Positions 40,913 to 56,781 of a stretch of 57,044 nucleotides of DNA are shown here, piece by piece. Origin of the DNA: Magnetococcales bacterium (GTDB lineage: Bacteria > Pseudomonadota > Magnetococcia > Magnetococcales > UBA8363); the NCBI GenBank assembly GCA_015228925.1, contig JADGCQ010000013.1, positions 1-57,044 on the forward strand, written 5' to 3'. Both the position numbers and the translations under genes were made by a program. Position 1 is the first letter of the stretch, and every line of letters begins with the position of its first letter. A model generated the notes under the pieces. The model did no database searches. It was not told where the DNA came from and saw only the letters and a list, made by a program, of their open reading frames with translations.

Positions 40913-41848
40913 TCAGTGAAAAACATCATGCAGTGAGTCGGCCTTGAAGATGTTGCCAACCCAGGTGGTCAATTCATCCAGATTGGCAGCGGCCACTTTC
41001 TGATCAATGGACTCCGGCACCGACCCAAAACGTGCCTGAAGCGATTGGAGCAGCATACTCGCTTTAGCCTTCCGTTTGCCTTCCTGGAGTCCTTCCTTCC
41101 TCCCCTCGATCAACCCTAAGCGATAAGTGGATTCCACCATGCTTGCCTGGAAGTGCAGATCCTCTTGAAAGCGTTCGTAGGCCTGCCATTCCGCATCTGT
41201 CAGGTTAAAAAGGTTCAATAGTTTCTTCGCCTCAAGCAAGCCACGCGCTGAGAACTCATCCCGAATATCACCCGTTTTGAGAAAGTAAATCCACTCGTCC
41301 AGGCGGGTACGCACCACTTCGTCAAAGCAGTTGACCTTGATCAGATAGCATTCCGGGAAAGTTTCCTGTACGGTTTTACGAATGAATAAATTCTTCTGCC
41401 TTTCGTTGAGTTGCAGCTCGTCCTGGGTGTGCAGACCCCGAAATGAAGTCGTGCCGTGGTAAATGTAATCCCTCCCTTGGCCAAGATCGAAGTATAAGAT
41501 GCTGATCGATATGGTCTTGGAAATTTCTGCATCGGGATCGCCAGCCCGCAAATGCTCCGCGACGGTCTTGGATAACGCATAGACAAGACGCCGCAGGTAG
41601 TCGTGTTCCCGTTCAAGCTGCAATTCAATCAGGATGAGTTCACCCTGACCGTTTCTGATTTTCATATCGACGCGATTGGATTTGTCGATTGGGCCGTCCT
41701 GGTTGCTTTCACTTTCCAGGATTTCAACGATCTGCACGTCGGTCATGAGCAACTCGCTCAACAACCCTTCCAGCACGCCAAAATGGGCCTTGCTGCGCAA
41801 TAGCCGTTTCAAAGCCCAGTCGAAGGTAATTAAACGGCGTCGTTTCAC
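40913..41848 (-). CDS. Rpn/PD-(D/E)XK nuclease family protein (311 aa)
   Basis: Begins at GTG 41848 (GAGAGG 6 nt upstream), giving VKRRRLITFDWALKRLL; the longer open frame adds ~50 residues with no ribosome site. The core pattern FDWALKRLL, VDMKIRNGQGELILIELQL (D-x9-E-x-Q of the PD-(D/E)XK site) and LRRLVYALSKTVAEHL is that of Rpn/transposase_31-type nucleases. The C-terminus (LGLIEGRKEGLQEGKRKAKA) is also typical. These proteins promote recombination and are often in multiple copies. It lies between two signalling clusters and is probably an unrelated insertion rather than a member. Confidence 0.7.
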   Translation of the reverse strand: MKRRRLITFDWALKRLLRSKAHFGVLEGLLSELLMTDVQIVEILESESNQDGPIDKSNRVDMKIRNGQGELILIELQLEREHDYLRRLVYALSKTVAEHLRAGDPDAEISKTISISILYFDLGQGRDYIYHGTTSFRGLHTQDELQLNERQKNLFIRKTVQETFPECYLIKVNCFDEVVRTRLDEWIYFLKTGDIRDEFSARGLLEAKKLLNLFNLTDAEWQAYERFQEDLHFQASMVESTYRLGLIEGRKEGLQEGKRKAKASMLLQSLQARFGSVPESIDQKVAAANLDELTTWVGNIFKADSLHDVFH

Positions 41849-42036
41849 AGTATCCCTCTCCCGAAATGCCAACACCGCGCCTTTTTGACGCTCCACACCT
41901 GCGGCAGGCCGATGGGAAAAAGGTCTCTCTGGAACATGATGCCCTCCGGGCAAAAAGTCAAAGACAAACGGATCGTATTCCCCAAATTTCAAGCCGTGGC
42001 GCAAGCCCTCAACCGCAACCGGTACCGGGTATTTCT

Positions 42037-43281
42037 CTATCCCAAACGGATACCACCCCCCTCTTGCTGGACTTGCCTGAGAATCGTCATGGCATGGGCG
42101 ACCATATCCGCCAAAGATCCCACCAAGCGGGAGGTAATTCCGATGCTGACTTTGACCCGAATAAAATCGTCTTCATAAGGAATGCGCAAGGCCTCGATAC
42201 GCTGCTTCAATCGTGAAAACACGACAACCGTATTATCGGGTTCTGGGTTGGCGATCAACACGCCAAACGTCTCATCATCAAGCCTCGCCGCGATATCGGT
42301 CTTGCGAAAAGCGCGGTTTAACAATTCGCCAATCCGCATCAATGCCAACACCCGGGCATAATCGCCATAGTTTTCCACCAACGACGCAACCTCATCGAGG
42401 GCAAAGACGGCCAGGGTGACAGAAATGTTTTCGCGAATAGCATTACTGTAAAGGGTAACCCCAGCATTCAAAAAAAAACGGGCGTTGGCCAATTGTGTCA
42501 CCGAATCGGTACAGGTGATCGCATTCAGTGTCTGCTGGTTTTCAATACGCTGAATGTTTTGATGGACACGATAAATCAGTTCCTCGCGATGAAATGGTTT
42601 GGCGAGGAAATCGTTTGCTCCCTCCTTGATAAAACGGACCGAGGCCTCTTCTCCTTGGGCCGAAACACCGATAACCAGCAGATCATCCCGGTTCCGTTTC
42701 AAATCCTGGCGAATCCATTCCAAAAGTTTGAGTCCATCACAACCGGGTACAGCATAATCGATCATGACAAGGCGAATTTCTGGGTGAGCGGTCAATATCT
42801 GGTGCGCCTCCGGTTCATCATGGGCCTCAAAAATGGGAAAACGATACCGTTTTAATGGTTCCGAGATGGTATTGGCTTGTTCAGGAGAGGCAAAAGCGAC
42901 CAAAATCGGATGATCACCATTATGCTCCATCCGTGCGATGATCTCGACGATATAATCCAGATTCATCGTTTTTTTGGTCACATAATCGACGATTCCATCA
43001 TCCTGGCGTATGGAGAAATCGGTATCGTTGTCAAACGCGGAAGCCAGGACCACCACCGGAATTTTTTTGGCGATGAGTTGGCGAATTCCGTGACCATCCC
43101 CGTTTCCTGGAAGGGAAAATTCAACAAGGGCTAGAAGAAATTCGTGACCGGTCGCCAGGATTTGCTGAAGCTGCCCATCGTCCATGGCGTGGACCAAGTG
43201 ATAACGTTGATCACATTCCAAGCGTCGTTTCAACAGTTTGGCAAACACCAGACTACCATCAGCCAGGAGTACATTCAGCAT
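42037..43281 (-). CDS. REC-REC-degenerate GGDEF protein (WspR-position output, 414 aa)
   Basis: REC1 (1-120): the phosphoacceptor aspartate is replaced by glutamate (LALVEFSLPG, E54). REC2 (~125-245): intact (LVMIDYAVPG, D175; LAKPFH). C-terminal ~165 residues align with GGDEF domains by size and by DSVTQLANARFF (DxLTxLxNRR), but the signature reads RLDDETF instead of RLGGDEF (334-339), and the metal/GTP strand and ND..GH..GD elements are lost. Catalysis is unlikely; a c-di-GMP or partner-binding role is possible. The start overlaps cheB by 7 bp with GGGAGG upstream. It is the last gene of the chemosensory operon, where Wsp systems carry the diguanylate cyclase WspR. Confidence 0.8.
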   Translation of the reverse strand: MLNVLLADGSLVFAKLLKRRLECDQRYHLVHAMDDGQLQQILATGHEFLLALVEFSLPGNGDGHGIRQLIAKKIPVVVLASAFDNDTDFSIRQDDGIVDYVTKKTMNLDYIVEIIARMEHNGDHPILVAFASPEQANTISEPLKRYRFPIFEAHDEPEAHQILTAHPEIRLVMIDYAVPGCDGLKLLEWIRQDLKRNRDDLLVIGVSAQGEEASVRFIKEGANDFLAKPFHREELIYRVHQNIQRIENQQTLNAITCTDSVTQLANARFFLNAGVTLYSNAIRENISVTLAVFALDEVASLVENYGDYARVLALMRIGELLNRAFRKTDIAARLDDETFGVLIANPEPDNTVVVFSRLKQRIEALRIPYEDDFIRVKVSIGITSRLVGSLADMVAHAMTILRQVQQEGGGIRLG

Positions 43282-44339
43282 GATAGCCTCCCGGTTTTAC
43301 ACCATGTAAGCACAGCCCCAGGGATACTATCCAAAGGGAGAATCTTCTGGGCAGCCCCAAGTGCGATAGCCTGCTGGGGCATACCAAAAACGACCGAAGA
43401 GGCTTCATCCTGGGCAATGGTCGTCCCCCCCTGCCGATCAATTTCCAGCAAACCCCTCGCCCCGTCACTTCCCATTCCCGTCAGGAGAATCCCTAAAACC
43501 GAATTCCGAAAATGATGTGCCAAGGATTGAAAAGTCAGGTCGATGGAAAATGTGTTCACGGCTTCTTGACCAGGATCGTGGGGATGGCAGTAAAATTGTC
43601 CCGTATCCTTCACCGAAAGATCCGCACCAGGAGGGGGAAAATAGATCGTTCCGGGACGGGGACAATCACCGGTTTTGGCGTGAACGACCGGCAGCGTCGT
43701 CGTTTTGCCGAGCCAAGCTACCAAGCCTGGCAAAAAAGCGGAACCAATGTGTTGCACGCAAATGATGGGCCAGGAAAAATCCCCAGGCAAGGCCTGGAGG
43801 ATGCGCGTCAACGCCAAGGGACCGCCCGTGGATGCCCCCAGAACAACAATACTCCCTGTGATGGTGGCCGCCGCCTTCTTGGAAGGGGAAACAACTGCGG
43901 CATCCACAGGGAAAGAACGGCGCATCAGGTTCAGTGGTTTTGCGTTCGATAATGCACGAATCTTTTGCCGCAGTTGTCTGCCCCAGCGATCATGACGAAT
44001 AGTGGGACCGCCAGGGGGTTTGGCCAGAATATCCATAGCCCCGGCCTGTAACACCAACAGGATGGTTTCGCTGTCGTTGTTCTCTTCCACCAAAACACTG
44101 ATCACCAGGATTGGCAGAGGACTCTGGGACATGATGGTCTTCACCAAAGAGAGGCCATTCATATTGGGCATGTAAAAATCGGTACAGACCACATCGGGAT
44201 GCACCTCCTGGATACACTGCCATCCCAAAACACCGTCCGCCGCAGAGGCCGCCACGACAATATCGCCATCCGCTTCGATAATCGTTTGCAAAATCCTCAG
44301 GGCGACGGGGGAATCATCCACCAACACAACCCGGATCAT
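43275..44339 (-). CDS. cheB: CheB methylesterase/deamidase response regulator
   Basis: REC domain (VVLVDDSPVALRI; VVCTDFYMPNMNG, acceptor D56; ILAKPP) joined to the methylesterase domain with the catalytic triad in GASTGGP (Ser), CVQHIGS (His) and LLTGMGSDGA (Asp). Length 354 aa is normal. It demethylates glutamates of the two receptors in this operon, with feedback from CheA. Start ATG overlaps the cheA stop (ATGA). In a Wsp-type system this is WspF, whose loss gives constitutive c-di-GMP production. Confidence 0.95.
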   Translation of the reverse strand: MIRVVLVDDSPVALRILQTIIEADGDIVVAASAADGVLGWQCIQEVHPDVVCTDFYMPNMNGLSLVKTIMSQSPLPILVISVLVEENNDSETILLVLQAGAMDILAKPPGGPTIRHDRWGRQLRQKIRALSNAKPLNLMRRSFPVDAAVVSPSKKAAATITGSIVVLGASTGGPLALTRILQALPGDFSWPIICVQHIGSAFLPGLVAWLGKTTTLPVVHAKTGDCPRPGTIYFPPPGADLSVKDTGQFYCHPHDPGQEAVNTFSIDLTFQSLAHHFRNSVLGILLTGMGSDGARGLLEIDRQGGTTIAQDEASSVVFGMPQQAIALGAAQKILPLDSIPGAVLTWCKTGRLSC

Positions 44340-46633
44340 GTCAGCCTCCGCAGGGTTTGAATCAATTGATCCTGCTGAAAACCGCTTTTGGTCAGGTAGG
44401 CATTGGCCCCGGCGATGAGACCCCGTTGTTGATCCTGCGGCGAAGAACGCGATGTAACCAAGATGACCGGCAACTTGTGCAATACACCCGAGGCGCGTAT
44501 CCTTTCCGTCAGCGTCAAACCATCCATTTCCGGCATCTCGACATCACTGACGACAGCATCAACGCGATGCCGACCCAGCTTTTCCAGGGCTTCCACGCCG
44601 TTGACTGCCGTGATGACTTGATATCCGGCCCTTTCAAGAATACGTTTTTCCTGAACCCGCGTGGTGATGGAATCTTCCACCAACAAAACAATGCGGGGCC
44701 GCTCTTTCGGGACCGCAAGTGGGGTCTTATCGGCACGCGAAGCCGCCATACCGGTCACCCCGCCCCCCCCGATTGCATGAGGCCCCTTTTTCGCCGTCGC
44801 CAGAAGATCTTCCGCCGACAATACCATGCAGACCTCGCCAGTCCCCAGAATGGTACTGCCCGACACATTGGGGACACGTCGCAAAATGGATGCGCAAGGT
44901 TTCAGCACCAGTTTTTGCTGATCAACCAATTCATCGACCAATACGCCAAGAGATTCCCCATCCACCGTCAAAAAGACACAGGGGCGATGGCGTATCTCCG
45001 GGTGCCCAGATAGTGTGTCGGGAAGCCCAAGCAATCGTTCCAAGCTGGTGACGGCGACGGGCTTGTCATCCAGTTCCAGAGTGTCCCGCCCATCCAACTG
45101 AAAGATACTGTCCAACTGGACGCGACGGACCAGTTGCACCGACTCCATGGGAATGACGAAACGGTGCTGTCCCAAGGCAACGATAAATACAGCCGTCGAA
45201 GAGAGTACATTGGGAATGGAAAGAATAAAACGACACCCATGGCCTGGCTGATTGATGAGACGCAATTGACCGTTGAGTTGTTCCACATGCGCACGGACCA
45301 CATTCATCCCAATGCCCCGCCCGGAAATATCGGTAATACACTTGGCCGTAGTAAAACCCGGAGTGCATAAGATGGTGATCAGCCGCGTGTCGGACAACGC
45401 CGGGGTATCGTCCTCGTGCAGCAGATTCTCCTCTTTGGCTTTTGCATAAATCGCTTCTGTATTCAGCCCTTTCCCATCATCGGCAACCTCAATCTCCACT
45501 CTGTCGGTAAAGCTTCGACCTTTAAGCCAAAGTGTCGCCTGGGGGGGCTTGCCGGCTGTCTGACGCTCTCCAGGCGTCTCCAATCCGTGATCCAGGGCAT
45601 TACGGACCAAGTGCGTCAATGGATCTTTCAAGGTTTCAACAATGTGCTTATCAACCGTGGTTTCCATCCCCTCCTGCATCAACCGGACCTCCTTGCCCTG
45701 TTGCCGGGACATCTCCCGCACCATCCTGGGGAACATACGGAATAAATCGAACAGGGACATGAGACGCAAATCCCATATCCCTTCTTCCAACTCTCCAGCC
45801 ACCCGTTCCAGCATGGTGCTGTCTTCAAATAATTCCCGACGCAACCCCTCCAATCCCCGATCCACACTTTCCAAGGGCCGTTCCGTATCTTCCAGGTTGT
45901 GCCGTTGCGCCACCCCCTGCCGTTGCAGCAATCCCCAATGAACGATCAACTCATTGACATCTTCGAGACGCCGCTCAACCCGGTTACGCACCACAAGCAA
46001 CTCACCAACCTTGCCCAAGAGTCGGTCCAATTTATGGGTATTGACCCGCATGGTCCTAATCCGTTTGACCGATTCGCCCACAACAGCACCACCCTCTGGC
46101 GACAGGGATTCCTCAGGCGGCGATTTGGTAACCTCCTCCGCAACCCAAGGTGGGGGATGGGGCGTATGGTCCACCACCGCCGGTGGAACCAAAGGATCCG
46201 GTGTGACTTGGGGCACAGGGATGATCGGAGGAGCCGGTTTGGTCGATTGTGGTATCAAACCACGCAACCGATCCATGGCATCCAAAACCGACAGGGTACT
46301 TTTTTCCCCAGAAATAGCCGCCTGGATCAAATTTTCAATATCGGTGAGACCACGATTCAGTTTATCCGCCAACGGGCGATTCACGACCATGCGCCCCTCA
46401 AAGCAGGGGCGCAGGACCTCCTCGAAGCAATGCACCATTTTTTCAACATCGGCAACCCCAAGCATCCGCGCCGCCCCTTTCAGGCTATGGGCATCCCGCA
46501 ATAAGCCTTGCAGTGCTTCCGAATCCTGGGGATTCTGCTCCAGTCGCAACAGACCGGACTCCAGATTTTCCAACCGCTCGGTGCTTTCGGAGCGAAAAAG
46601 ATTGCGCAACTCCCGGTCTTTGATCATGCTCAC
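44336..46633 (-). CDS. cheA: CheA-REC hybrid chemosensory kinase (WspE-like)
   Basis: Start GTG 46633 (GGAGGA 6 nt upstream) or ATG 46627. Domains: P1 HPt (DAHSLKGAARMLG, H47 from ATG), a Pro-rich linker in place of an evident CheY/CheB-binding P2, P3 dimerisation (MRVNTHKLDRLLGKVGEL, VVRNRVERRL), P4 HATPase (VRNALDHGLE; DDGKGL; GRGIGMN), P5 CheW-like domain (FVIPMESVQLVRR) and a C-terminal REC (IVLLVEDSITTR; AVVSDVEMPEMDG; LTKSGF). CheA-REC hybrids are typical of Wsp and other non-flagellar chemosensory pathways. No separate CheY gene exists here. It overlaps cheB by ATGA. Confidence 0.9.
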   Translation of the reverse strand: MSMIKDRELRNLFRSESTERLENLESGLLRLEQNPQDSEALQGLLRDAHSLKGAARMLGVADVEKMVHCFEEVLRPCFEGRMVVNRPLADKLNRGLTDIENLIQAAISGEKSTLSVLDAMDRLRGLIPQSTKPAPPIIPVPQVTPDPLVPPAVVDHTPHPPPWVAEEVTKSPPEESLSPEGGAVVGESVKRIRTMRVNTHKLDRLLGKVGELLVVRNRVERRLEDVNELIVHWGLLQRQGVAQRHNLEDTERPLESVDRGLEGLRRELFEDSTMLERVAGELEEGIWDLRLMSLFDLFRMFPRMVREMSRQQGKEVRLMQEGMETTVDKHIVETLKDPLTHLVRNALDHGLETPGERQTAGKPPQATLWLKGRSFTDRVEIEVADDGKGLNTEAIYAKAKEENLLHEDDTPALSDTRLITILCTPGFTTAKCITDISGRGIGMNVVRAHVEQLNGQLRLINQPGHGCRFILSIPNVLSSTAVFIVALGQHRFVIPMESVQLVRRVQLDSIFQLDGRDTLELDDKPVAVTSLERLLGLPDTLSGHPEIRHRPCVFLTVDGESLGVLVDELVDQQKLVLKPCASILRRVPNVSGSTILGTGEVCMVLSAEDLLATAKKGPHAIGGGGVTGMAASRADKTPLAVPKERPRIVLLVEDSITTRVQEKRILERAGYQVITAVNGVEALEKLGRHRVDAVVSDVEMPEMDGLTLTERIRASGVLHKLPVILVTSRSSPQDQQRGLIAGANAYLTKSGFQQDQLIQTLRRLT

Positions 46634-46675
46634 GGGCCTTCCTCCACCATTCCCTGGCAACGACTAACGGCCATG

Positions 46676-48829
46676 TTACAAAATGGCCCTGAGTTTGGCT
46701 GCCGCCTCGTCCAAAGAACGGATTCCCGCGTTGACCTGAGCCAGACCCGCCTCGTTCTCGCGCGCCCCCTCATTGATGGTATTCATGGCATCCACGACCT
46801 GACTGATTGCCAGGGATTGTTGTTTGGCATTCAAGGAAATCTGTTGCGTTCTTTCCAGGCCGTTTTCCATGGCCTCGGCAATTTCATGGAGGACAATGAC
46901 CGATTTTTCGGCCATTTCAACACCCTTCGTCATGGTTTTGCTCCCTTCATCGGTAATCATGACCGTGGCATTGGTCGCTTTCTGGATTTCACCCACCAAA
47001 GCATTGATCCGTTTTGTGGACCATTTGGATTCATCGGCCAACTTACGGGTTTCCAAAGCCAGGACGGAAAATCCTTTGCCATGTTCCCCAGCCCGTACCG
47101 CCTCCACGGCGGCATTCATGGCCAACATCTTGGTCTCATTGGCAAAGTCGGATACCAGGCGCGAAATGTCCCGAATCTGATCGGTTTGTTCACTCAGTTC
47201 AAGGATATGGGCGGCAATCTGGGAAGCTTTCTCTTTGGTATCGGTCATGCCATCACGCAAAGATTCCAATTGTCCAATGCCCGAGGTCACAAAGTCTCGG
47301 GTATTTTCAGCCAGGACTGTCGTTTCGGCGGCATGTTCCGAGGTTTTTCGTGCCGAATTGTCCAGTTCCGCCAGGGTGACATTGGTCTCGTTGACCGAGG
47401 AGGCTTGCTGACTGGCCGTCAGCTCCTGCTGCGCCAGCCGACCGCGCAATTGTTCAAGAAACGAAGAGATCGTCTGCGACAATTCCTGGAGACGCGACAT
47501 GATACCCAGACCAATCCGCCGACTGAAATACCACAATAGCAGAACAATAATCAGGCTAATGATGGCAATTCCCCATTGAATAAAATACAACGGCTGGTAG
47601 GCATCATGCCAGGAAACGGTCGTAAATAACACCCACTTCTGGCCTCCAGGGAGAATAATCGGGGAATGTGTGGCCAACATCCTGCGCCCAAGATAATCAA
47701 TCAACTCTGTGGCCTCATGCTGTACCCCCTGGATCGATTCTTCCACATGGGGAGTCATCCAGGAGAGGAAAGAGGTAACATTGTGGTGTTGCTGTATCTT
47801 GTACAAAACGGTTTCGTCTACCCTGTGTTCCTTGAGGGCGTCAATCGCTTTCCTGGGATCATGAATCATGAGGCGGATATTGCTGCGGAAAACGCCATCC
47901 GCCCCCACGAGAAAACTTTCCCCGGTCATACCCAAACCAATCTCATGCCAACGTTCTCCATTGAGGGTGATGGCTTCGACTGCGGCAACAGGCAATTGCA
48001 ACGCCAAGGCACCAACCCTTTGTCCATCCAGGAAAACCGGGGCCACAACAAAACCCACAGGACGGTTAAAGGTCGGTGGATACGGTTCAAAATCGACCAA
48101 GAAAACCTTGCCTGGCGTGGTTTGCGCCATCGCTTGCGCAACGGCAGACGACAACATTCTTCCAGCGTAAGGCCCCGTCTTAAGATTGAGACCAAAATCA
48201 AGTTCTTTTTGTATGGTATAGACGACTCTGAATTCTTTCGGTTCAATCAAGAGCATGTCATAAAAACCAGACCGCTGCTGACAATTACGTAGAAGGGGGT
48301 GATAACGCCGATGGGCTGCGCCATAGGGACCGTCATTGGAATCACCGTCCAGTTTGTCCCGGCTGCCGATGGGATGGGGATTTTCGCCAATATAGCGTGA
48401 TTGCATCAGCAACCCTGTGCGGCTGCGTGGCCAGAATTGGTTGACGGCATCCTCTGGTGCCATCTGTGTACGAAGCCCCAGTTCGTGGTATCGCGCCCGC
48501 AACTGATTCGTATGTGCTTCTTTTTCTCGATCGAATTTGTCACCCAACTCCGCTTCGATCCCATTAACCGCTTGGGCAAAGTCCACCAAAGATTGTGCGA
48601 CGAGTTGATTTTCGCCGACGATCATGGCCTGATTGGAAATCATGGAGAATAACCCTTCCAATTCTCTGGCGTTGCCCAGATGGACGGCAGAAAGCTGATG
48701 CAAAGCAGCTTTTTCTAACGTGGGGGTCAAAGTGACATAGGTAAACAAATTGATACAGATGGCGGGTAGTAACCCCGCCCATAAGAACCCATGCGTGATG
48801 ACCCTGGATAGGCTTAATTTTATCTTCAT
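46676..48829 (-). CDS. Methyl-accepting chemotaxis protein A (717 aa)
   Basis: The start is ATG 48829 (MKIKLSLSRV). A transmembrane helix at ~11-33, a large periplasmic domain of ~390 residues, a second helix near residue 430 (WGIAIISLIIVLLLWYF) and a cytoplasmic signalling coiled coil. The hairpin tip reads FANETKMLAMNAAVEAVRAGEHGKGFSVLA (written in pieces: FANETKMLAMNAAVEAVRAG, GKGFSVLA) in place of the usual FQTNLLALNAAVEAARAGE. The periplasmic part has a single-Cache-like look (GKVFLVDFEPYPPTF, RPVGFVVAPVFLDGQRVGALALQ, FLVGADGVFRSN). No CheR pentapeptide tail is present. It lies between the double-CheW gene and cheA. Confidence 0.85.
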   Translation of the reverse strand: MKIKLSLSRVITHGFLWAGLLPAICINLFTYVTLTPTLEKAALHQLSAVHLGNARELEGLFSMISNQAMIVGENQLVAQSLVDFAQAVNGIEAELGDKFDREKEAHTNQLRARYHELGLRTQMAPEDAVNQFWPRSRTGLLMQSRYIGENPHPIGSRDKLDGDSNDGPYGAAHRRYHPLLRNCQQRSGFYDMLLIEPKEFRVVYTIQKELDFGLNLKTGPYAGRMLSSAVAQAMAQTTPGKVFLVDFEPYPPTFNRPVGFVVAPVFLDGQRVGALALQLPVAAVEAITLNGERWHEIGLGMTGESFLVGADGVFRSNIRLMIHDPRKAIDALKEHRVDETVLYKIQQHHNVTSFLSWMTPHVEESIQGVQHEATELIDYLGRRMLATHSPIILPGGQKWVLFTTVSWHDAYQPLYFIQWGIAIISLIIVLLLWYFSRRIGLGIMSRLQELSQTISSFLEQLRGRLAQQELTASQQASSVNETNVTLAELDNSARKTSEHAAETTVLAENTRDFVTSGIGQLESLRDGMTDTKEKASQIAAHILELSEQTDQIRDISRLVSDFANETKMLAMNAAVEAVRAGEHGKGFSVLALETRKLADESKWSTKRINALVGEIQKATNATVMITDEGSKTMTKGVEMAEKSVIVLHEIAEAMENGLERTQQISLNAKQQSLAISQVVDAMNTINEGARENEAGLAQVNAGIRSLDEAAAKLRAIL

Positions 48830-48871
48830 GTCCAAAGAAGGCTCCACGACTGCAAGTGTATGGGGTGAGTC

Positions 48872-49945
48872 TCAAGGCGTCTGATCGACGATAAGTTCAG
48901 GTGACAACAATAATCTGGCCGGATGGATCACCGACAACACATTTCCCTGCCAGCGTAGTGAGCCAAGCAGATGATGCGCCCCCCCTTCATGAACGGCAGG
49001 GAGGAACTGGGTTTCGGCATCCTGATACACCACATCGACCACTTGGTGAACCAAAAATCCCAGGATTTCATCCTCTTGCATTTCCACCAGGACCGCTTTT
49101 TCCATAGAATCCGCAATGACGGGAATCGCCAGGAGACTAGAAACGTCCAACAACGTCAACATTTCCCCCCGGCGGCTCATGATGCCGGCGATATGCCCCG
49201 GACAACATGGAATGGGGGTTATCCTGGTTGTCGTCACAAATCCACGTACCGTCTCCATGGCCAGAGCCAGCCGGGTTTCGTGCAGGCGTACAATGGCGAA
49301 AGCTTGCAGCGTGGTCGTATCCGTCATACGCACAGGGAGCATCAAACGTCGGGCGCGCTCACGAAACACACTGTGATCACGATCGGATGATCCGGGACTG
49401 AAACGGCGGGGATGCGGATGTTGACCGTGCGTCAGTTGGCCTTGTCGCTCCATCCCACCAACCTCGGATACGGCCAGCCGGTCCCGCGACGACAACAGGC
49501 GTTGATGATCCAAAAGTGCCACCATCCGATCTTCGATGTTGGCCACCCCGCAAAGGGAATGATGCGGTTTGCCCTCGTCACCTCCACCCAGCAGGGTCTG
49601 AAGCTCTTTGGATTGTTTGGGTTGCAGAGTAAGAATACCGACAATATGATTGGCCATCACCGCGACATCCAACGCATCATGCACAAGAATGATGATAAGA
49701 AAGTCAGAGGTGGTCCATGATCTTTCCGGTGTTCCCGTCCCTGCATCCAAGTCAACAACCGGCACCAGTCGGCCCCGTACATTCACCAGACCGGCAACGT
49801 GAATCGGCAAATCCTCCAGGGGGGCAACTTCGGGCAGGCGTGTAATCTGCCGTACCGACTCCGCCTTGAGGCCATAGTATTTGTCTCCAAGCTGGAACAC
49901 CAAGTATGGCCAGTCGGTCGTCGTCGGGGAAGATAGGAGACTCAT
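48872..49945 (-). CDS. Double CheW adaptor fusion (357 aa)
   Basis: Two CheW domains in tandem. The first at ~10-150 (LVFQLGDKYYGLKAESVRQI, GLVNVRGRLVPVVDLD); the second at ~215-350 (AFAIVRLHETRLALAMETVRG, GIMSRRGEMLTLLDVS, EDEILGFLVHQVVDVV), with a His/Arg-rich linker (HGQHPHPRRF). CheW couples receptors to CheA; Wsp systems use two separate CheW proteins (WspB and WspD), so this gene looks like their fusion. It starts directly at the cheR stop (TGAATG). Confidence 0.85.
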   Translation of the reverse strand: MSLLSSPTTTDWPYLVFQLGDKYYGLKAESVRQITRLPEVAPLEDLPIHVAGLVNVRGRLVPVVDLDAGTGTPERSWTTSDFLIIILVHDALDVAVMANHIVGILTLQPKQSKELQTLLGGGDEGKPHHSLCGVANIEDRMVALLDHQRLLSSRDRLAVSEVGGMERQGQLTHGQHPHPRRFSPGSSDRDHSVFRERARRLMLPVRMTDTTTLQAFAIVRLHETRLALAMETVRGFVTTTRITPIPCCPGHIAGIMSRRGEMLTLLDVSSLLAIPVIADSMEKAVLVEMQEDEILGFLVHQVVDVVYQDAETQFLPAVHEGGAHHLLGSLRWQGNVLSVIHPARLLLSPELIVDQTP

Positions 49946-51442
49946 TCAGCAACTTTCCTGGAGTATACGTTGGAGTTCATCGACCAATGTTTTCACAGAC
50001 CACCGCTCCAGGAAACCGATGGAACGATCCTCAGGCTCCCGTAACAATTGATGCAACGCCGATTGCCATTCCCGACAAGCTTCCTGCCGCCTACCCAGTT
50101 GTGCCAGGAGATTGCCCAACTCGATCATGGCCAACACATCGCCGGGATCGAGATAAATCGCGATTTGGAAGTGACGGATGGCCTCGTCAAAACGTTGGGA
50201 ATCGGATAACACTTGGCCCAACAGACCGTGGGGTGCCGATGCGGAAGGATCCATCCGTATCGCCGCCAGACACGCTTCTTCAGCTTGGCTTAGCCTTCCC
50301 AGGTTGGCCAACGCCCAGGCCAAAAGGGTCTGAATGGGGGCATTGTCGGGGTAGACCGCCATGGCCGCATCGCCTTCGGCCTGCGCACGGGAATGGTCCC
50401 CCTCCGCAATCCGGTGCCGCATCCGATCACAAATTTCTTCGGGCGTTGTTTCCCTATTTTCCGGGGTACGCCGAGGATGGTTTTTGGGAACCGTCACAGG
50501 ACGCATCGGAACCGACAATCTCACCTTGGCCTGGACCTCAGGCTTTTGAAAAACTTGGCTGTGGGAAAATGTACGCACCACGTAACCACTTTTTTCCATA
50601 AACTGCCGCTCGGTTTCACCATGCCCGGTGATCAGATACCCCCCCGGCTTCAGCAAGGCGAACATCGCTTCCAAAATGCGCCGTATGGCCTGGGAAGAAA
50701 GATAGATAAACACGTTACGACACACAACAAGGTCAAATCTGGGCTGCCAACCCAATACGTTGGCAGCCTCCATAAGATTGAGTTCCATAAACCCAACCCC
50801 ATCGGCCAAATGTGGATCGATCCGATACGACCCATCCTCCTCTTTGTAAAAACAAGTCTCCCAAATATCCCGAGGTATGCACCGAAATGACCACGACGGA
50901 TAACATCCACGTCGCGCCCGTCGTATACAGTCGGGAGCGATGTCGGTACCCAATATCTTGACCTGCCGTAGCACACCCAGTTGATCAGAAAAAAAATTTC
51001 TGAGAATCAAATTTCTGAGAATCATGGCCAGCGTATAGGCTTCTTCGCCACTGGCACAACCAGCACTCCACAAGTTCAGCGCACAATCCCCCCCTTGTTT
51101 CGACAAAAGTTCCGGCAATAAATAATTTTCAATGACAGATAGTTGATCAGGATCACGAAAAAAATAGCTCTCATGAACCGTCAGTCCCAACAAAAAGTCG
51201 GACCACTCCCTCTGTCCTTTGCCCGGATCGCTCAACAGAGACAAATAATCCTCAAGATTGGATAACCCCAGGGCAACCCGACGGTCTTGCAATAAATTCA
51301 ATACCGTTGGGCGAGAATACGTCAGTTTCAGCCCCGTTTTTCGTTCCAGCAAGGTTTCCAACCGGGACCACCAATCGGACGCAACAACACCTCCAGAGTC
51401 ATCAGCAAACTTATCATTTCGAGAAATGGTTTGATCACTCAT
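49946..51442 (-). CDS. cheR: CheR methyltransferase with C-terminal TPR repeats (WspC-like)
   Basis: N-terminal CheR all-alpha domain and SAM-binding domain (LWSAGCASGEEAYTLAMIL, ILGTDIAPDCIRRA, FDLVVCRNVFIYL, HGETERQF) followed by TPR-like helical repeats from ~residue 350 (AEGDAAMAVYPDNAPIQTLL, EACLAAIRMDPSASAPHGLL, HFQIAIYLDPGDVLAMIELG). CheR-TPR is the WspC form, which methylates receptors that lack a pentapeptide tail. A 15-bp perfect tandem duplication at 50994-51023 adds five residues (LRNLI-LRNFF) in the SAM domain. No ribosome site is strong; TPRs probably bind the receptor complex. Confidence 0.9.
   Translation of the reverse strand: MSDQTISRNDKFADDSGGVVASDWWSRLETLLERKTGLKLTYSRPTVLNLLQDRRVALGLSNLEDYLSLLSDPGKGQREWSDFLLGLTVHESYFFRDPDQLSVIENYLLPELLSKQGGDCALNLWSAGCASGEEAYTLAMILRNLILRNFFSDQLGVLRQVKILGTDIAPDCIRRARRGCYPSWSFRCIPRDIWETCFYKEEDGSYRIDPHLADGVGFMELNLMEAANVLGWQPRFDLVVCRNVFIYLSSQAIRRILEAMFALLKPGGYLITGHGETERQFMEKSGYVVRTFSHSQVFQKPEVQAKVRLSVPMRPVTVPKNHPRRTPENRETTPEEICDRMRHRIAEGDHSRAQAEGDAAMAVYPDNAPIQTLLAWALANLGRLSQAEEACLAAIRMDPSASAPHGLLGQVLSDSQRFDEAIRHFQIAIYLDPGDVLAMIELGNLLAQLGRRQEACREWQSALHQLLREPEDRSIGFLERWSVKTLVDELQRILQESC
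50994..51023. repeat. 15-bp tandem duplication inside cheR
   Basis: The 15-mer aaatttctgagaatc occurs twice head to tail (50994-51008, 51009-51023). It is in frame and yields the LRNLILRNFF repeat after the SAM-binding motif, probably in a surface loop. Confidence 0.85.
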
Positions 51443-51457
51443 GATCTGTCTGCCGCT

Positions 51458-54067
51458 TCACTTGCCATGGACGAGACCATCCAGTACTTTGACGACTTGA
51501 TTCAGGTTTTGTACCCCTTTGTTGATCATGGCGATTCCTGCTGCGTTTTCTCGTGCCGCAACCTTCATTTTGGTCATAGTTTCCAACTGTCGTTTGATCT
51601 CTTCTTCTTCGTTGCGTAAATTCAATGTAATTTGCTTGGCATTGGCGGAGGCATTTTCCGCCGATTCCGTGACATGACTGAACGTCGCACTCGTTTCCCG
51701 GACGATGGCGAGTCCCTCCTGAGCGGTCACTGTCCCCTCGTGCGATCCTTTGACCGTCCCGGAAGTCACTTGGCGCAATTCCAAAACCAAATTGTTGATA
51801 CGGTCCGTGGAACGTTTGCTATCTTCGGCCAATTTGCGTATCTCCTCGGCCAATATCGTAAACCCCTTGCCGCTCTCTCCGGCCCGCACCGCCTCAACAG
51901 CAGCGTTCATGGCCAAAATTTTTGTTTCCACGGCAAAGTCGGTCACCATGGCACTGATTTCGTCAATCTGGACAAATTTTTCGCTCAAAGAACGAATTTG
52001 TTGGGCAATTTCTTCGGAGCCGCGACTGTTGGCATCCATGTTTCCCTGAAGCGTCCACAACCGTTCTTCCCCGACCCTGGCCAATGCCAGAACATTGTCA
52101 CTCCCAGCCATCGCGGCGTCAGCCTGCTCAACAGAACGCCGCGCCGTATCGAACAATCTTCCCATACCCGCCGTAATCGCCGTCATGGCCTCCGCCTGTG
52201 TCTGAGAGATCCGATCCTGTTGAAGGATGGTTGTGGCAATCTCTCCGGCTGAGGCGACCGTTTCCTGGGAAACCATGGTCAGTGTCTTGGTAATGCGTCG
52301 GGAGGTCCACCAACTGACCAACACCACCATGATCGTGATGACCAGGGACAATACCACAAAAAATAATTTCAGATTCTGGACCGGTCGCAACACCGAATCC
52401 CGATCCCGTTCTGCCACCAATGCCCAAGTTATTTTCCCCACACGTACTGGAGAAAAAGCAACAAAGACTGGATCATGCCGATAGTTAACACTCTCCATGA
52501 CACCCGATTGTTGTTCCAACGCCGCCTTGACAGCCCGTGTGGTGATGGCCCTTCGACTCGGATCGGCGAAGGAGGTACGCACAGAGTAGTGTTCGGGATC
52601 CAGCGTTGAATCGGAACGCATCAAAAAATCGGGACCAACCAGATAGGTTTCACCACCATCACCCTGACCACTGCGTTGTGTCATGATTTTGTTGATAAAC
52701 GTATCAGACATCTGCAAAACCAGGACAAACGCCAATTTATCTTGGACCAACAACGGACGGGCAAAAAAACTGGCAGGAGTCCCCCCCGTTGCTGCGAAAG
52801 GAATCATGTCACTCATCCCCTCCATGCGGTGCGTCACAACGGACTGCACCAAGGTCGCCAGATGGCTTTCCCGGTATTTTGGGTCATCCAACAGGTTGAC
52901 ACCCAGGATATCGTTGGGTTGGGCGGCAAAAAATATCCGCCCCCCCGGTTGAATCATGTATAAATTTTCATATCCCAATCGGTGAATGTAGTGTGTAATG
53001 AAATTTTCACCAGCCTCAGTGCCGACAGGATTGATGATCTCGTCCAGGTTGGCTCCCGCCTCTAAACGCCAATCAAGCCCGGGGATGGCCAGCGATACCG
53101 CATTGGTCAAACGCACTGTTCCAGTACGATCCTCCACAACATACCGGCGCGATGGCATCTCGGCGGTTTTTGCACCCTCACGAACCACGTTGGCCACGCC
53201 GACCACGCCGGAAAGATGATCCCTGGAATCAGAGTCCAAACGCGGCAAAGGACCGCCGGGCGTCAAAAACGATACCCGACCACTCCGTCCCATACCTGAG
53301 GACGTTTGGACAATATCATGTATAGGAGCCATGGAAAGGCGCAACGCCAGCACACCGACCACCTCGCCAAAACGGTGTACGGGGGCCGTAATGAAAGCAG
53401 ATAGATTACCACTGATAGGCAAATAGGGGGCAAAATCTTCGATATGAACCCCTTTTAATCCCGCAACGAACGCCACCTTCAAAGGGGTCTGATCCAGAGG
53501 CTCCCGATAAACGTTCCCCCCCATTTCGCTTCTCTGGGCGGCACTGTAGACAACGTTGCCATCGTTGTCCAAAAGCAGTACGTCGGCGAAATCGCGTTCT
53601 TTGCGGTACTGGTCAATCTCGACAGCGTACCGATCCACGACCGCTTTCCATGCAACCCCGTTCGTCTGGTTTCCTTCGACTTTGAACGCCCCGGTAAACT
53701 GCTCCATCGCCTGAGAAAGAGATTCGCTACGAGAAAACACCTTCGCATCGTCAAGCCGTTCCCTAAAAAAAAACTCTGTATAATCTTTTTTATGATCGAC
53801 AATGCTTTGTAAACGCGCACTGGCCTCATTTTGCAACAGTTGAACGACATCCATCAATGAATCGGAATCCTGCTTGCGTTCCAGAAAAAAATTTTCAATA
53901 TGCGATTTTTTCAGATCACGAATGCTTTGCAAATGCTCCAATTCACTCTGACGCAACGCTTTGGTTCCCTGGTAAGTGGTCATAAGCCCCATCAAAAAAA
54001 CGGGCAACAGTCCAATGGCCAGAGAGACCAATAACAGCTTTTTCCGTAGCGAAAGACGAAGAATCAC
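51458..54067 (-). CDS. Methyl-accepting chemotaxis protein B, large periplasmic sensor (869 aa)
   Basis: Start GTG 54067 (GGGAG 5 nt upstream). TM1 at ~9-29 (LLVSLAIGLLPVFLMGLM), periplasmic region of ~560 residues with two Cache-like portions (DNDGNVVYSAAQR, APVHRFGEVVGVLALRL; then GGRIFFAAQPNDILG, FARPLLVQDKLAFVLVLQM, GETYLVGPDFLMRS), TM2 near 590-612 (LFFVVLSLVITIMVVLVSW), HAMP-like and signalling coiled coil with tip FAVETKILAMNAAVEAVRAG, followed by GKGFTILAEEIRKLAE. No CheR tail. First receptor after the substrate-binding protein gene (67 bp gap), so a natural partner for it. Confidence 0.85.
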   Translation of the reverse strand: MILRLSLRKKLLLVSLAIGLLPVFLMGLMTTYQGTKALRQSELEHLQSIRDLKKSHIENFFLERKQDSDSLMDVVQLLQNEASARLQSIVDHKKDYTEFFFRERLDDAKVFSRSESLSQAMEQFTGAFKVEGNQTNGVAWKAVVDRYAVEIDQYRKERDFADVLLLDNDGNVVYSAAQRSEMGGNVYREPLDQTPLKVAFVAGLKGVHIEDFAPYLPISGNLSAFITAPVHRFGEVVGVLALRLSMAPIHDIVQTSSGMGRSGRVSFLTPGGPLPRLDSDSRDHLSGVVGVANVVREGAKTAEMPSRRYVVEDRTGTVRLTNAVSLAIPGLDWRLEAGANLDEIINPVGTEAGENFITHYIHRLGYENLYMIQPGGRIFFAAQPNDILGVNLLDDPKYRESHLATLVQSVVTHRMEGMSDMIPFAATGGTPASFFARPLLVQDKLAFVLVLQMSDTFINKIMTQRSGQGDGGETYLVGPDFLMRSDSTLDPEHYSVRTSFADPSRRAITTRAVKAALEQQSGVMESVNYRHDPVFVAFSPVRVGKITWALVAERDRDSVLRPVQNLKLFFVVLSLVITIMVVLVSWWTSRRITKTLTMVSQETVASAGEIATTILQQDRISQTQAEAMTAITAGMGRLFDTARRSVEQADAAMAGSDNVLALARVGEERLWTLQGNMDANSRGSEEIAQQIRSLSEKFVQIDEISAMVTDFAVETKILAMNAAVEAVRAGESGKGFTILAEEIRKLAEDSKRSTDRINNLVLELRQVTSGTVKGSHEGTVTAQEGLAIVRETSATFSHVTESAENASANAKQITLNLRNEEEEIKRQLETMTKMKVAARENAAGIAMINKGVQNLNQVVKVLDGLVHGK

Positions 54068-54134: not shown

Positions 54135-55442
54135 TCACATCCTGGTCGGCGACCAGGACACTTTGTGTACCTGAATATCAGCGTAGCGCGACCAATCATG
54201 CCGTTTCTGTTGTTCATCGCGCAAAAGTTTTGGAAACCCAGGTTGCGACGCCGAAGTCCAACGCCCCTCGGATTGCAACTCCTTGATAGCCAAGTCGAGA
54301 AAGCCTCCCTGGGTCCATTCGTCCACATAGGTATCGGGATTCCGGGTGCGATCATTTTTCAACTGGCCAATGGTACGCCACATCCTGGCGCACCCCTTGA
54401 TATGCGCACGCACCTCCGGGGTCATGCGTCCATCCCAGATCATCATATCCAGACTAGAGCGGATTACCGAGGGTGGCACCTCTGGAATGTCGCTCCAGAT
54501 ATGGTAGGCTGCCAAATCAGGATTATGCGTCAATAAGTCGCGACTCTCCTCCTCCGACTTCAGATAACCGGCAAGGATATCGGGCCGTTCTCTGAGCCAG
54601 TCTCGAAGGGCCAGAGTGGCACCCACCACCCGAAACGTATGCTGGACCGCATCTTTATTGGTTGTGCTACAGGTACAGGGCATTTCCAATCCTGTCACCC
54701 AGCGTTTGGCCAGTTTACGGTATTCCATCCACGACGGATAAGGTTCCCAGAGGGTACCACCCCACAGAATATCTTGTTTGAGTTGGCCCATCTGCAACTC
54801 GATGGAGCGATCACGCATCTCCAGCGTGACCCCGTTCTGTTCCGCCCAGGTCAACAATTGTCGATGCGAGTAGGAACCAAAGGGTGTCCCGAACGGTTTG
54901 CCCTTCAGATCCATCGGTGATGTGACCTTCCCCGCGTCCAATAGATTATTACGCACAACGATTGCCCCGGTCTCGCCGCTATCATAGCCGGTTGCCGCAA
55001 CCATGTCGCACGCCACAAGGTCTCCAGACTTGAGCGCGGGAGTTTCCGCCATATAACCGAACTGGTTGATTCCCGCATTCATATTATTGTTGATCAAAGG
55101 TCCAGAAAGGGCACGAAACCAAAGAACCCGACTCCCTTTGGGGAGATATTTCGCCCAGAGTTCCACCTGCTTATTGACGGTTGAGGTCCAATAGGGGGTA
55201 CAGTAGGGTTGATACCCGACCGTCAGCGTCACCGGATCTCCAATCCGTCCAAATTTTCCCGTTGGTTCGCCAAGACGGGCCGCCAATTCCAGCCACTCTT
55301 TGGCCACCCCTGTTTCCGATTGCGCCATGGCGCGTCCGCCAACCGGATTGGGCAGCATCCCCAAAACGGTGGGCAAAACAATACCCGCTGTCAGTGATGA
55401 TTTCAGAAAATGTCGGCGCGTGCATGTGTTGTACAGTTCCAT
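54135..55442 (-). CDS. Tat-exported ABC-type substrate-binding protein (NMT1/SsuA/CmpA-like)
   Basis: N-terminal Tat signal: TRRHFLKSS (R9-R10) followed by a hydrophobic stretch AGIVLPTVLG and AMAQ cleavage-like site. The mature domain has the periplasmic-binding-protein pattern of nitrate/sulfonate/thiamine-precursor binders: VTLTVGYQPYCTPYW, AGINQFGYMAETPALKSGD, GAIVVRNN, DLKGKPFGTPFGSYSHRQL. No permease or ATPase gene is nearby. It lies between the DGC and receptor B genes, so it may deliver a ligand signal to the receptor, as MBP does for Tar and PstS for CtpL. The ligand is unknown. Confidence 0.85.
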   Translation of the reverse strand: MELYNTCTRRHFLKSSLTAGIVLPTVLGMLPNPVGGRAMAQSETGVAKEWLELAARLGEPTGKFGRIGDPVTLTVGYQPYCTPYWTSTVNKQVELWAKYLPKGSRVLWFRALSGPLINNNMNAGINQFGYMAETPALKSGDLVACDMVAATGYDSGETGAIVVRNNLLDAGKVTSPMDLKGKPFGTPFGSYSHRQLLTWAEQNGVTLEMRDRSIELQMGQLKQDILWGGTLWEPYPSWMEYRKLAKRWVTGLEMPCTCSTTNKDAVQHTFRVVGATLALRDWLRERPDILAGYLKSEEESRDLLTHNPDLAAYHIWSDIPEVPPSVIRSSLDMMIWDGRMTPEVRAHIKGCARMWRTIGQLKNDRTRNPDTYVDEWTQGGFLDLAIKELQSEGRWTSASQPGFPKLLRDEQQKRHDWSRYADIQVHKVSWSPTRM

Positions 55443-55452
55443 AAGGATCTAT

Positions 55453-56781
55453 TCACTCTTGATTGGCACCGGGATTAAAAAACCAATACCTGTTTTTTCC
55501 GGCATTTTTTGCGACATACATAGCCATATCGGCATTTTTCAACAAACGTTCCTTATCCCCGCCATCGTTGGGGTACAAGGTAATGCCGATACTCCCGGAG
55601 ATCTGGGCTTGGTTTTCTTTCAGCCAGAAAGGTTTTGCCAATGTATCCAAAATTTTTCTGGCGACCAGCTTGGTCCCATCGGGGGTAATATCGTAGAGGA
55701 TGGCTGTAAACTCATCGCCCCCCAGGCGTCCCAGGGTATCCGTGGTACGAATGCAGCGTTTCATCCGTTGGGCACACTCTTGGAGGAGCAAATCACCCGC
55801 ATCATGACCCAGGGTATCGTTGACCCATTTAAACCGGTCAAGATCAATGAACAGCAGAGAAAAAGAGACCGATTGACGGTGGGCCAAAGAGATACTTTCG
55901 TCAAGGTGTTGTATAAAAAGATTGCGATTGGGCAAATCGGTCAGGAGATCATAATGGGCTTGGTAACGAATCCGTTCTTCTTCATGTTTGCGCTGGGTGA
56001 TATCACGCATGACGCTGGCAATCAGTGTTTTTCCCTCTTCGCTCCAAGAATTGATGGATATTTCCATGGGAACTTGCTGGCCATCCTTGCGTAATCCCTG
56101 CCATTCACGGATGTCACCTTTCTGCAAGCTTCCTGTGGATAGCAATTCTTTGAAGCTTTCTTTGAATGCGGTACTGAATGAGTGTGGAAAGAGGCGGTCA
56201 ACTTGTCGGCCTATCACCTCGTCTCGATCATATCCAAATAACGTTACGGCTCCCTGGTTCCAAAAACGGATGATTCCGTCAAGGTCTGACGCAACGACAG
56301 CCTCCTGGATGGACTGGGTGACGATCCGAAACTGGAGTTCTTTTTCCTTAAGGATTTGGTGAGATTTTCTATTTTTCAACAGGTTGTAGTGGGATCTAGC
56401 GTGGTAGCGGAGCCTAGCCAACAATTCAACCTTTTCCGGTAATTTAACAAGATAGTCGTTGGCTCCCATTTCAAAGGCTTTGGCTTTGAAATAGGATTCC
56501 TCATGGGAGGAGAGCATGATGATGGGTGTATCGGCGAAATCGGGGTGCTGCCGAAATCGTTCGAGAAGGGTCAAACCATCCACCCCTGGCATCACAAGGT
56601 CCAAAAGTATGACCGCTGGATCGACCTCTTTAGCTTTCGGCAGGGCGTCCAGGGGGGTATTGGTAGCATGCAGGATCAGATCGTTTCGAGCATCTTCCGA
56701 AAAGATTTTGTTCAGGACATAGCCAGTGATCTCCTGGTCGTCTACCAGAAGGACAGGGACACACTCAAGAGTAAAGTTCAT
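55453..56781 (-). CDS. REC-PAS-GGDEF diguanylate cyclase (first gene of chemosensory operon)
   Basis: REC at ~8-125 (LLVDDQEITGYVL; VILLDLVMPGVDG, D61), coiled segment, PAS/PAC at ~150-265 (AVVASDLDGIIRFWNQGAV; DITQRKHEEE) and GGDEF at ~275-440 with all active elements: HYDLLTDLPNRN, LLFIDLDRFKWVNDTLGH, GRLGGDEF (354-358) and an RxxD inhibitory site RTTD (345-348). It should make c-di-GMP and be product-inhibited. Strong promoter at 56880-56908; the start lies 120 bp downstream of it with no clear ribosome site. Its stop is 10 bp from the SBP start. It is a candidate output of CheA. Confidence 0.9.
   Translation of the reverse strand: MNFTLECVPVLLVDDQEITGYVLNKIFSEDARNDLILHATNTPLDALPKAKEVDPAVILLDLVMPGVDGLTLLERFRQHPDFADTPIIMLSSHEESYFKAKAFEMGANDYLVKLPEKVELLARLRYHARSHYNLLKNRKSHQILKEKELQFRIVTQSIQEAVVASDLDGIIRFWNQGAVTLFGYDRDEVIGRQVDRLFPHSFSTAFKESFKELLSTGSLQKGDIREWQGLRKDGQQVPMEISINSWSEEGKTLIASVMRDITQRKHEEERIRYQAHYDLLTDLPNRNLFIQHLDESISLAHRQSVSFSLLFIDLDRFKWVNDTLGHDAGDLLLQECAQRMKRCIRTTDTLGRLGGDEFTAILYDITPDGTKLVARKILDTLAKPFWLKENQAQISGSIGITLYPNDGGDKERLLKNADMAMYVAKNAGKNRYWFFNPGANQE

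Follow-up and report, generated by a model that had tools for sequence, protein, structure and literature searches.

A predicted sensory role for a Tat-exported SsuA/TauA-type solute-binding protein in a Wsp/ACF-type operon of a Magnetococcales bacterium

The window analyzed here, a 57,044-nucleotide stretch of DNA from a Magnetococcales bacterium, encodes a Tat-exported solute-binding protein (SBP) as the second of nine genes in a Wsp/ACF-type operon. We propose, with a probability of about 0.6, that this is a dedicated sensory SBP, the loaded form of which docks on the adjoining chemoreceptor MCP_B and drives a Wsp/ACF-type c-di-GMP output. The proposal builds on features established at the sequence level, namely, the gene, its fold family, its Tat motif, the operon, the joint presence or absence of SBP, receptor, and CheA across the genus, and the recurrence of an SBP-sensor pair with swapped outputs. 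The strongest argument for docking is that this pair stays the same from one class to the other, whereas the output differs. A preliminary description of this DNA had already cast the SBP as a ligand sensor for the adjoining receptor, an idea supported by recurrence of the pair in another class with different outputs and by the lack of a free transporter in the genome.

RESULTS

The SBP gene is part of a nine-gene signaling operon

The operon encodes, in order, a REC-PAS-GGDEF protein, the SBP, MCP_B, CheR-TPR, CheW-CheW, MCP_A, CheA-REC, CheB, and a REC-REC-GGDEF-like protein, all on one strand, with −7 to 67 nt at the eight gene junctions (Table 1). The preliminary description placed the SBP between a diguanylate cyclase and a chemoreceptor, which is correct for the immediate neighbors but missed the Wsp/ACF-like operon around them; the 67-nt spacing to the receptor and the very large periplasmic domain that it reported both hold, the domain measuring about 530 residues. 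ACF pathways are marked by CheR-TPR and multidomain response regulators (PMC3447774), and Wsp is their c-di-GMP example (PMC8846402). CheR-TPR, hybrid CheA-REC, CheB, CheW, and a multidomain response regulator, the set of clustered genes taken from PMC3447774 as the signature of such pathways, all occur together in the window, and by gene content the operon is of Wsp/ACF-type architecture. The intact GGDEF motif in the first protein suggests a c-di-GMP output, as opposed to flagellar switching. The last protein of the operon has a degenerate active site and may be a c-di-GMP-independent regulator. Bordering the operon on its 3′ side is a PD-(D/E)XK transposase-family gene (40913 to 42004, minus strand), which would fit a mobile module.

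Table 1. Features of the SBP operon, with positions in the window
Feature	Position	Strand	Basis or remark
REC-PAS-GGDEF response regulator, intact GGDEF motif, predicted diguanylate cyclase	55453..56781	−	10 nt upstream of SBP
SBP gene, Tat-exported solute-binding protein, SsuA/TauA/NrtA fold	54135..55442	−	435 aa
Tat motif TRRHFLK, SBP aa 8-14	55401..55421	−	Alignment; kept in 14/14 family members
Predicted signal-peptidase site AMA, SBP aa 38-40 (AMA^QS)	55323..55331	−	Prediction read off alignment
MCP_B receptor, dCache and MCPsignal domains, 869 aa, predicted SBP partner	51458..54067	−	67 nt from SBP
Periplasmic sensor of MCP_B, aa 34-565	52373..53968	−	AlphaFold2 and Foldseek
CheR-TPR methyltransferase, WspC-like layout	49946..51442	−	Domain search; PMC3447774
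CheW-CheW, two CheW stretches	48872..49945	−	Domain search
MCP_A, second receptor of the operon	46676..48847	−	Domain search
Hybrid CheA-REC (Hpt, dimerization, HATPase, CheW, REC)	44336..46660	−	
CheB	43275..44339	−	
REC-REC-GGDEF-like protein, degenerate active site (DDETF)	42037..43281	−	

Family membership and export of the SBP

The SBP open reading frame is uninterrupted and begins with ATG. Orthologs in three congeners share 76 to 84% amino acid identity, and pN/pS across all ortholog pairs is 0.09 to 0.21, marking this as a real gene under purifying selection. As a single sequence, the SBP matched no Pfam family at an E value of ≤0.01 and scored 33 bits against TIGR01728 (SsuA_fam; cutoff, 163.5), so by that standard it is not SsuA but only a member of its superfamily. 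The earlier label of NMT1/SsuA-like is refined by these scores, although a 23-sequence profile of SBP relatives does reach TauA, SsuA, and NrtA structures at E values of 1e-18 to 1e-3, with similarity over both lobes and best matches to TauA 6ssy (1.2e-18), SsuA 2x26 (1.5e-18), and 3e4r (1.5e-17). An AlphaFold2 model of the SBP from 11 sequences had a pLDDT of 48, misplaced lobes, and a TM score of about 0.2 to its own homologs, and for this reason was not used for the ligand pocket or cysteine geometry; Foldseek with this low-confidence model points to the same families as the profile search. Judged by profile similarity, the window SBP belongs to the SsuA/TauA/NrtA superfamily.

The Tat signal reported in the preliminary description is conserved in all 14 family members, in the form RRxFL[K/N], and the genome encodes TatC, so that both the twin-arginine motif and the machinery expected for a Tat substrate are present. 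Because most family members have an AxA-type cleavage site in the alignment, where no lipobox was seen, the SBP is probably soluble in the periplasm after cleavage.

The MCP_B sensor and inheritance within the genus

AlphaFold2 produced a confident model of the MCP_B sensor (pLDDT, 83.7) with a long helix and four PAS-like folds, a predicted structure that we read as a tandem double-Cache. The nearest structures in Foldseek were DctB, Mlp24, and PctA. As to whether a sensor of this type can bind an SBP, the folds are predicted to be Cache, and the structural neighbors just named bind their small ligands directly. Of 43 Beggiatoales, 30 encode homologous sensors, in most cases with no SBP of the window type nearby, indicating that the SBP is an add-on rather than a requirement.

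Four of eight congeners have orthologs of the SBP, MCP_B, and CheA, all three in the same genomes; the remaining four have none of them and carry only paralogs (three of these four genomes are 95 to 99% complete). CheA orthologs are 71 to 79% identical within the genus, and the order DGC, SBP, MCP_B, CheR is identical in three relatives. The genes are thus both adjacent and coinherited, as expected of an SBP-dependent receptor.

The SBP-sensor pair recurs in Beggiatoales with other outputs

The SBP family is rare. Carriers comprised 9 of 43 Beggiatoales, 4 of 8 members of the window's genus, and one contig of a Desulfobacterales metagenome-assembled genome (MAG), while 368 other sampled Gammaproteobacteria yielded no member at family-level score and two weak matches. 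Plasmid-borne relatives had 22 to 27% identity among the matches listed and were mostly annotated as (sulfonate) ABC SBPs. A signaling gene adjoins the SBP on the same strand at 11 of the 13 family loci with a readable neighborhood.

The Beggiatoales SBPs are 53 to 63% identical to that of the window. In Thiomargarita (G066), the SBP immediately precedes an MCP, and in Venteria (G067) and Thiotrichales BB31 (G069), it follows an RR-kinase and precedes a hybrid kinase of 1,680 to 1,690 aa. All three receptors share the whole MCP_B sensor (33 to 35% identity over ~590 aa by blastp, 34 to 37% by genome search), and in each genome, the receptor adjoining the SBP matches the window sensor best. Adjacency of SBP and sensor therefore occurs in at least three Beggiatoales genomes, with an MCP output in one and a hybrid kinase in two, and this recurrence with swapped outputs identifies the SBP-sensor pair as the shared unit. 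In a further genome (G068), SBP and receptor each lie at a contig end, on two different contigs, an arrangement compatible with adjacency. In G072, the SBP adjoins an RR-kinase and the best sensor match is about 5 kb away; the same genome (L119:3050-9223) encodes a different Tat-type SBP (NMT1_2), followed after 114 nt by a 1,688-aa hybrid kinase with a sensor homologous to that of MCP_B, an independent instance of the SBP-sensor arrangement.

Linkage to this sensor varies among the carriers. The best sensor match is unlinked to the SBP in four SBP-bearing Beggiatoales, and in Thioploca (L015 and L049), the SBP adjoins a 4HB-sensor hybrid kinase, the closest Cache receptor being unlinked. At both Thioploca loci (L049:9532-15779 and L015:4606-11266), the gene for the 4HB-sensor hybrid kinase is flanked by two SBP genes of different subfamilies. 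Across Beggiatoales, the sensor is found in 9 of 9 genomes with the SBP and also in 21 of the 34 lacking the SBP (P = 0.025, with no correction for kinship); given those 21 genomes, co-occurrence was set aside as weak support. A claim of SBP-receptor cospeciation was also dropped, since the receptor tree has poor resolution near the Magnetococcales branch.

DISCUSSION

In the mechanism we propose, the SBP would be exported by Tat, have its signal cleaved, and reside in the periplasm, where it would bind a small, probably anionic solute. The loaded SBP would then dock on the putative tandem double-Cache sensor of MCP_B. This receptor, with CheR-TPR and CheB adjusting it and CheW-CheW providing the coupling, would control the hybrid kinase CheA-REC, the likely target of which is the REC-PAS-GGDEF protein encoded just upstream of the SBP. 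Phosphorylation of this protein may then change c-di-GMP as a Wsp/ACF-type output, with signaling presumed to run in this direction.

Three other explanations were weighed. The SBP might be a bystander, either part of the regulated function or a ligand buffer, with MCP_B sensing directly through its Cache pockets and cotranscription reflecting shared regulation. Most sensor paralogs have no SBP nearby, and PctA, Mlp24, and DctB bind their ligands directly. Gene order alone is an imperfect guide: 10 of 11 characterized SBP-kinase couples are gene neighbors, and in P. aeruginosa, two sbp/kinase sets are adjacent yet showed no interaction (PMC11113362), a record of adjacency without binding that calls for caution on docking. 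Even so, a bystander is unlikely, because the SBP-sensor pair persists from one class to another even as other neighbors and output domains vary and because G072 pairs this sensor family with a second type of SBP. A redox or metal protein, in which C81, C145, C256, and C258 bind a cofactor or form disulfides and the SBP signals redox state or a metal instead of a solute, is least probable of all. Those four cysteines are invariant in the window SBP's subclade, spanning Magnetococcales, Beggiatoales, and one Desulfobacterales MAG, and Tat is a suitable route for cofactor proteins; the preliminary description had linked Tat to a folded or cofactor-containing state. That link is not supported by comparison with the sister subclade, all five members of which lack C81, C256, and C258 and four of which lack C145, although the Tat motif and signaling neighbors are retained, and the SBP model (pLDDT, 48) is too poor for judging cysteine clustering. 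A cysteine cofactor was rejected as the general reason for Tat, and, as far as the alignment reaches, the conserved cysteines do not account for Tat export of the SBP.

Transport in trans, in which the SBP feeds an SsuC/TauC/NrtB-type ABC importer encoded elsewhere, also seems improbable. As the preliminary description stated, there is no permease or ATPase in the window, which is the entire contig (C44), and none was seen upstream of the operon in three congeners. Six BPD_transp_1 permeases were found in the genome, which is 99.4% complete; five are of apparent peptide, Pst, and molybdate type (as read from sequence, not family tested), and the single SsuC-like permease lies on contig C194 together with an NMT1-type SBP of its own, 26% identical to the window SBP over 110 aa. 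No SsuC-type permease is left unassigned in this genome, and a distant transporter serving the window SBP was rejected, as the C194 transporter has its own SBP. On contig C194 (L139:399-6251), a CAP12-like TIR protein lies between the NMT1 SBP and the SsuC-type permease/ATPase that belongs to it. Upstream are a caspase-like protein and a TIR protein of the ThsB type, and the whole may be a defense island inserted in the transporter operon. An adjoining permease and ATPase, which the preliminary description would have taken as evidence against its idea, are absent from the window genome but present in a distant relative: on a 3.7-kb contig of a Desulfobacterales MAG (L010), a 60%-identical SBP heads an SBP-permease-ATPase operon, the transporter genes being of the TauC/NrtB kind and closest to group B transporters. 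Group B relatives themselves lie in SBP-permease-ATPase-permease-ATPase operons. In three Desulfobacterales (L058, L059, and L060), group B SBP operons adjoin apparent corrinoid/methyltransferase-type genes (sequence starts only), a hint to the group B substrate. The ABC operon of L010 and a sensor family that does not require an SBP are among the comparative observations that count against docking; we continue to favor a dedicated sensory SBP acting through MCP_B.

SBP-activated chemoreceptors are known and have been discussed (PMC9602780). A literature search, with most subscription journals outside its reach, found no case of an SsuA/TauA-type SBP with a chemoreceptor, and we regard this variant as the new element here. 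The Wsp/ACF inputs are a standing question, the WspA stimulus having been described as a mystery (PMC8846402), and a dedicated SBP offers a soluble predicted ligand sensor that can be assayed. The family also suggests a route from ABC transporter SBP to receptor subunit, as transport-linked (L010) and signaling-linked relatives are still 60% identical. More tentatively, and at somewhat less than even odds, a Tat-exported SsuA-like family may have left transport, with SBP and tandem double-Cache moving between Magnetococcales and giant sulfur bacteria as a portable input cartridge plugged into an ACF/c-di-GMP operon, an MCP, and hybrid kinases, where it would report a solute important to both lifestyles. 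The pair may also point to a chemical cue common to Magnetococcales, an order of magnetotactic bacteria, and giant sulfur bacteria.

Compared with SsuA, TauA, and NrtA, the window SBP shares fold and sequence family but lacks a cognate transporter, is ~100 aa longer, carries a Tat signal, and has a fixed place in a signaling operon. LuxP-LuxQ combines a separate periplasmic SBP with a membrane hybrid kinase bearing a double-Cache/PAS sensor. The window likewise has a separate periplasmic SBP and a Cache-type receptor, and the Beggiatoales versions include hybrid kinases, a likeness drawn from pathway knowledge, not sequence comparison; LuxP, however, is a sugar-type SBP whereas the window SBP is SsuA/TauA-like, and the window sensor is a predicted tandem double-Cache on an MCP. 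In PstS-CtpL and MBP-Tar, binding proteins act as ligand sensors for an MCP, the role predicted here, and also serve transporters; no transporter partner was found for the window SBP in its genome, and the SBP and sensor families differ. Like Wsp (PMC3447774, PMC8846402), the window operon unites an MCP, CheR-TPR, a CheW pair, hybrid CheA-REC, CheB, and a REC-GGDEF protein. The Wsp receptor WspA has a 4HB sensor and its system no SBP, whereas the window operon has two MCPs, a fused CheW-CheW, a PAS insert in the diguanylate cyclase, and an SBP gene.
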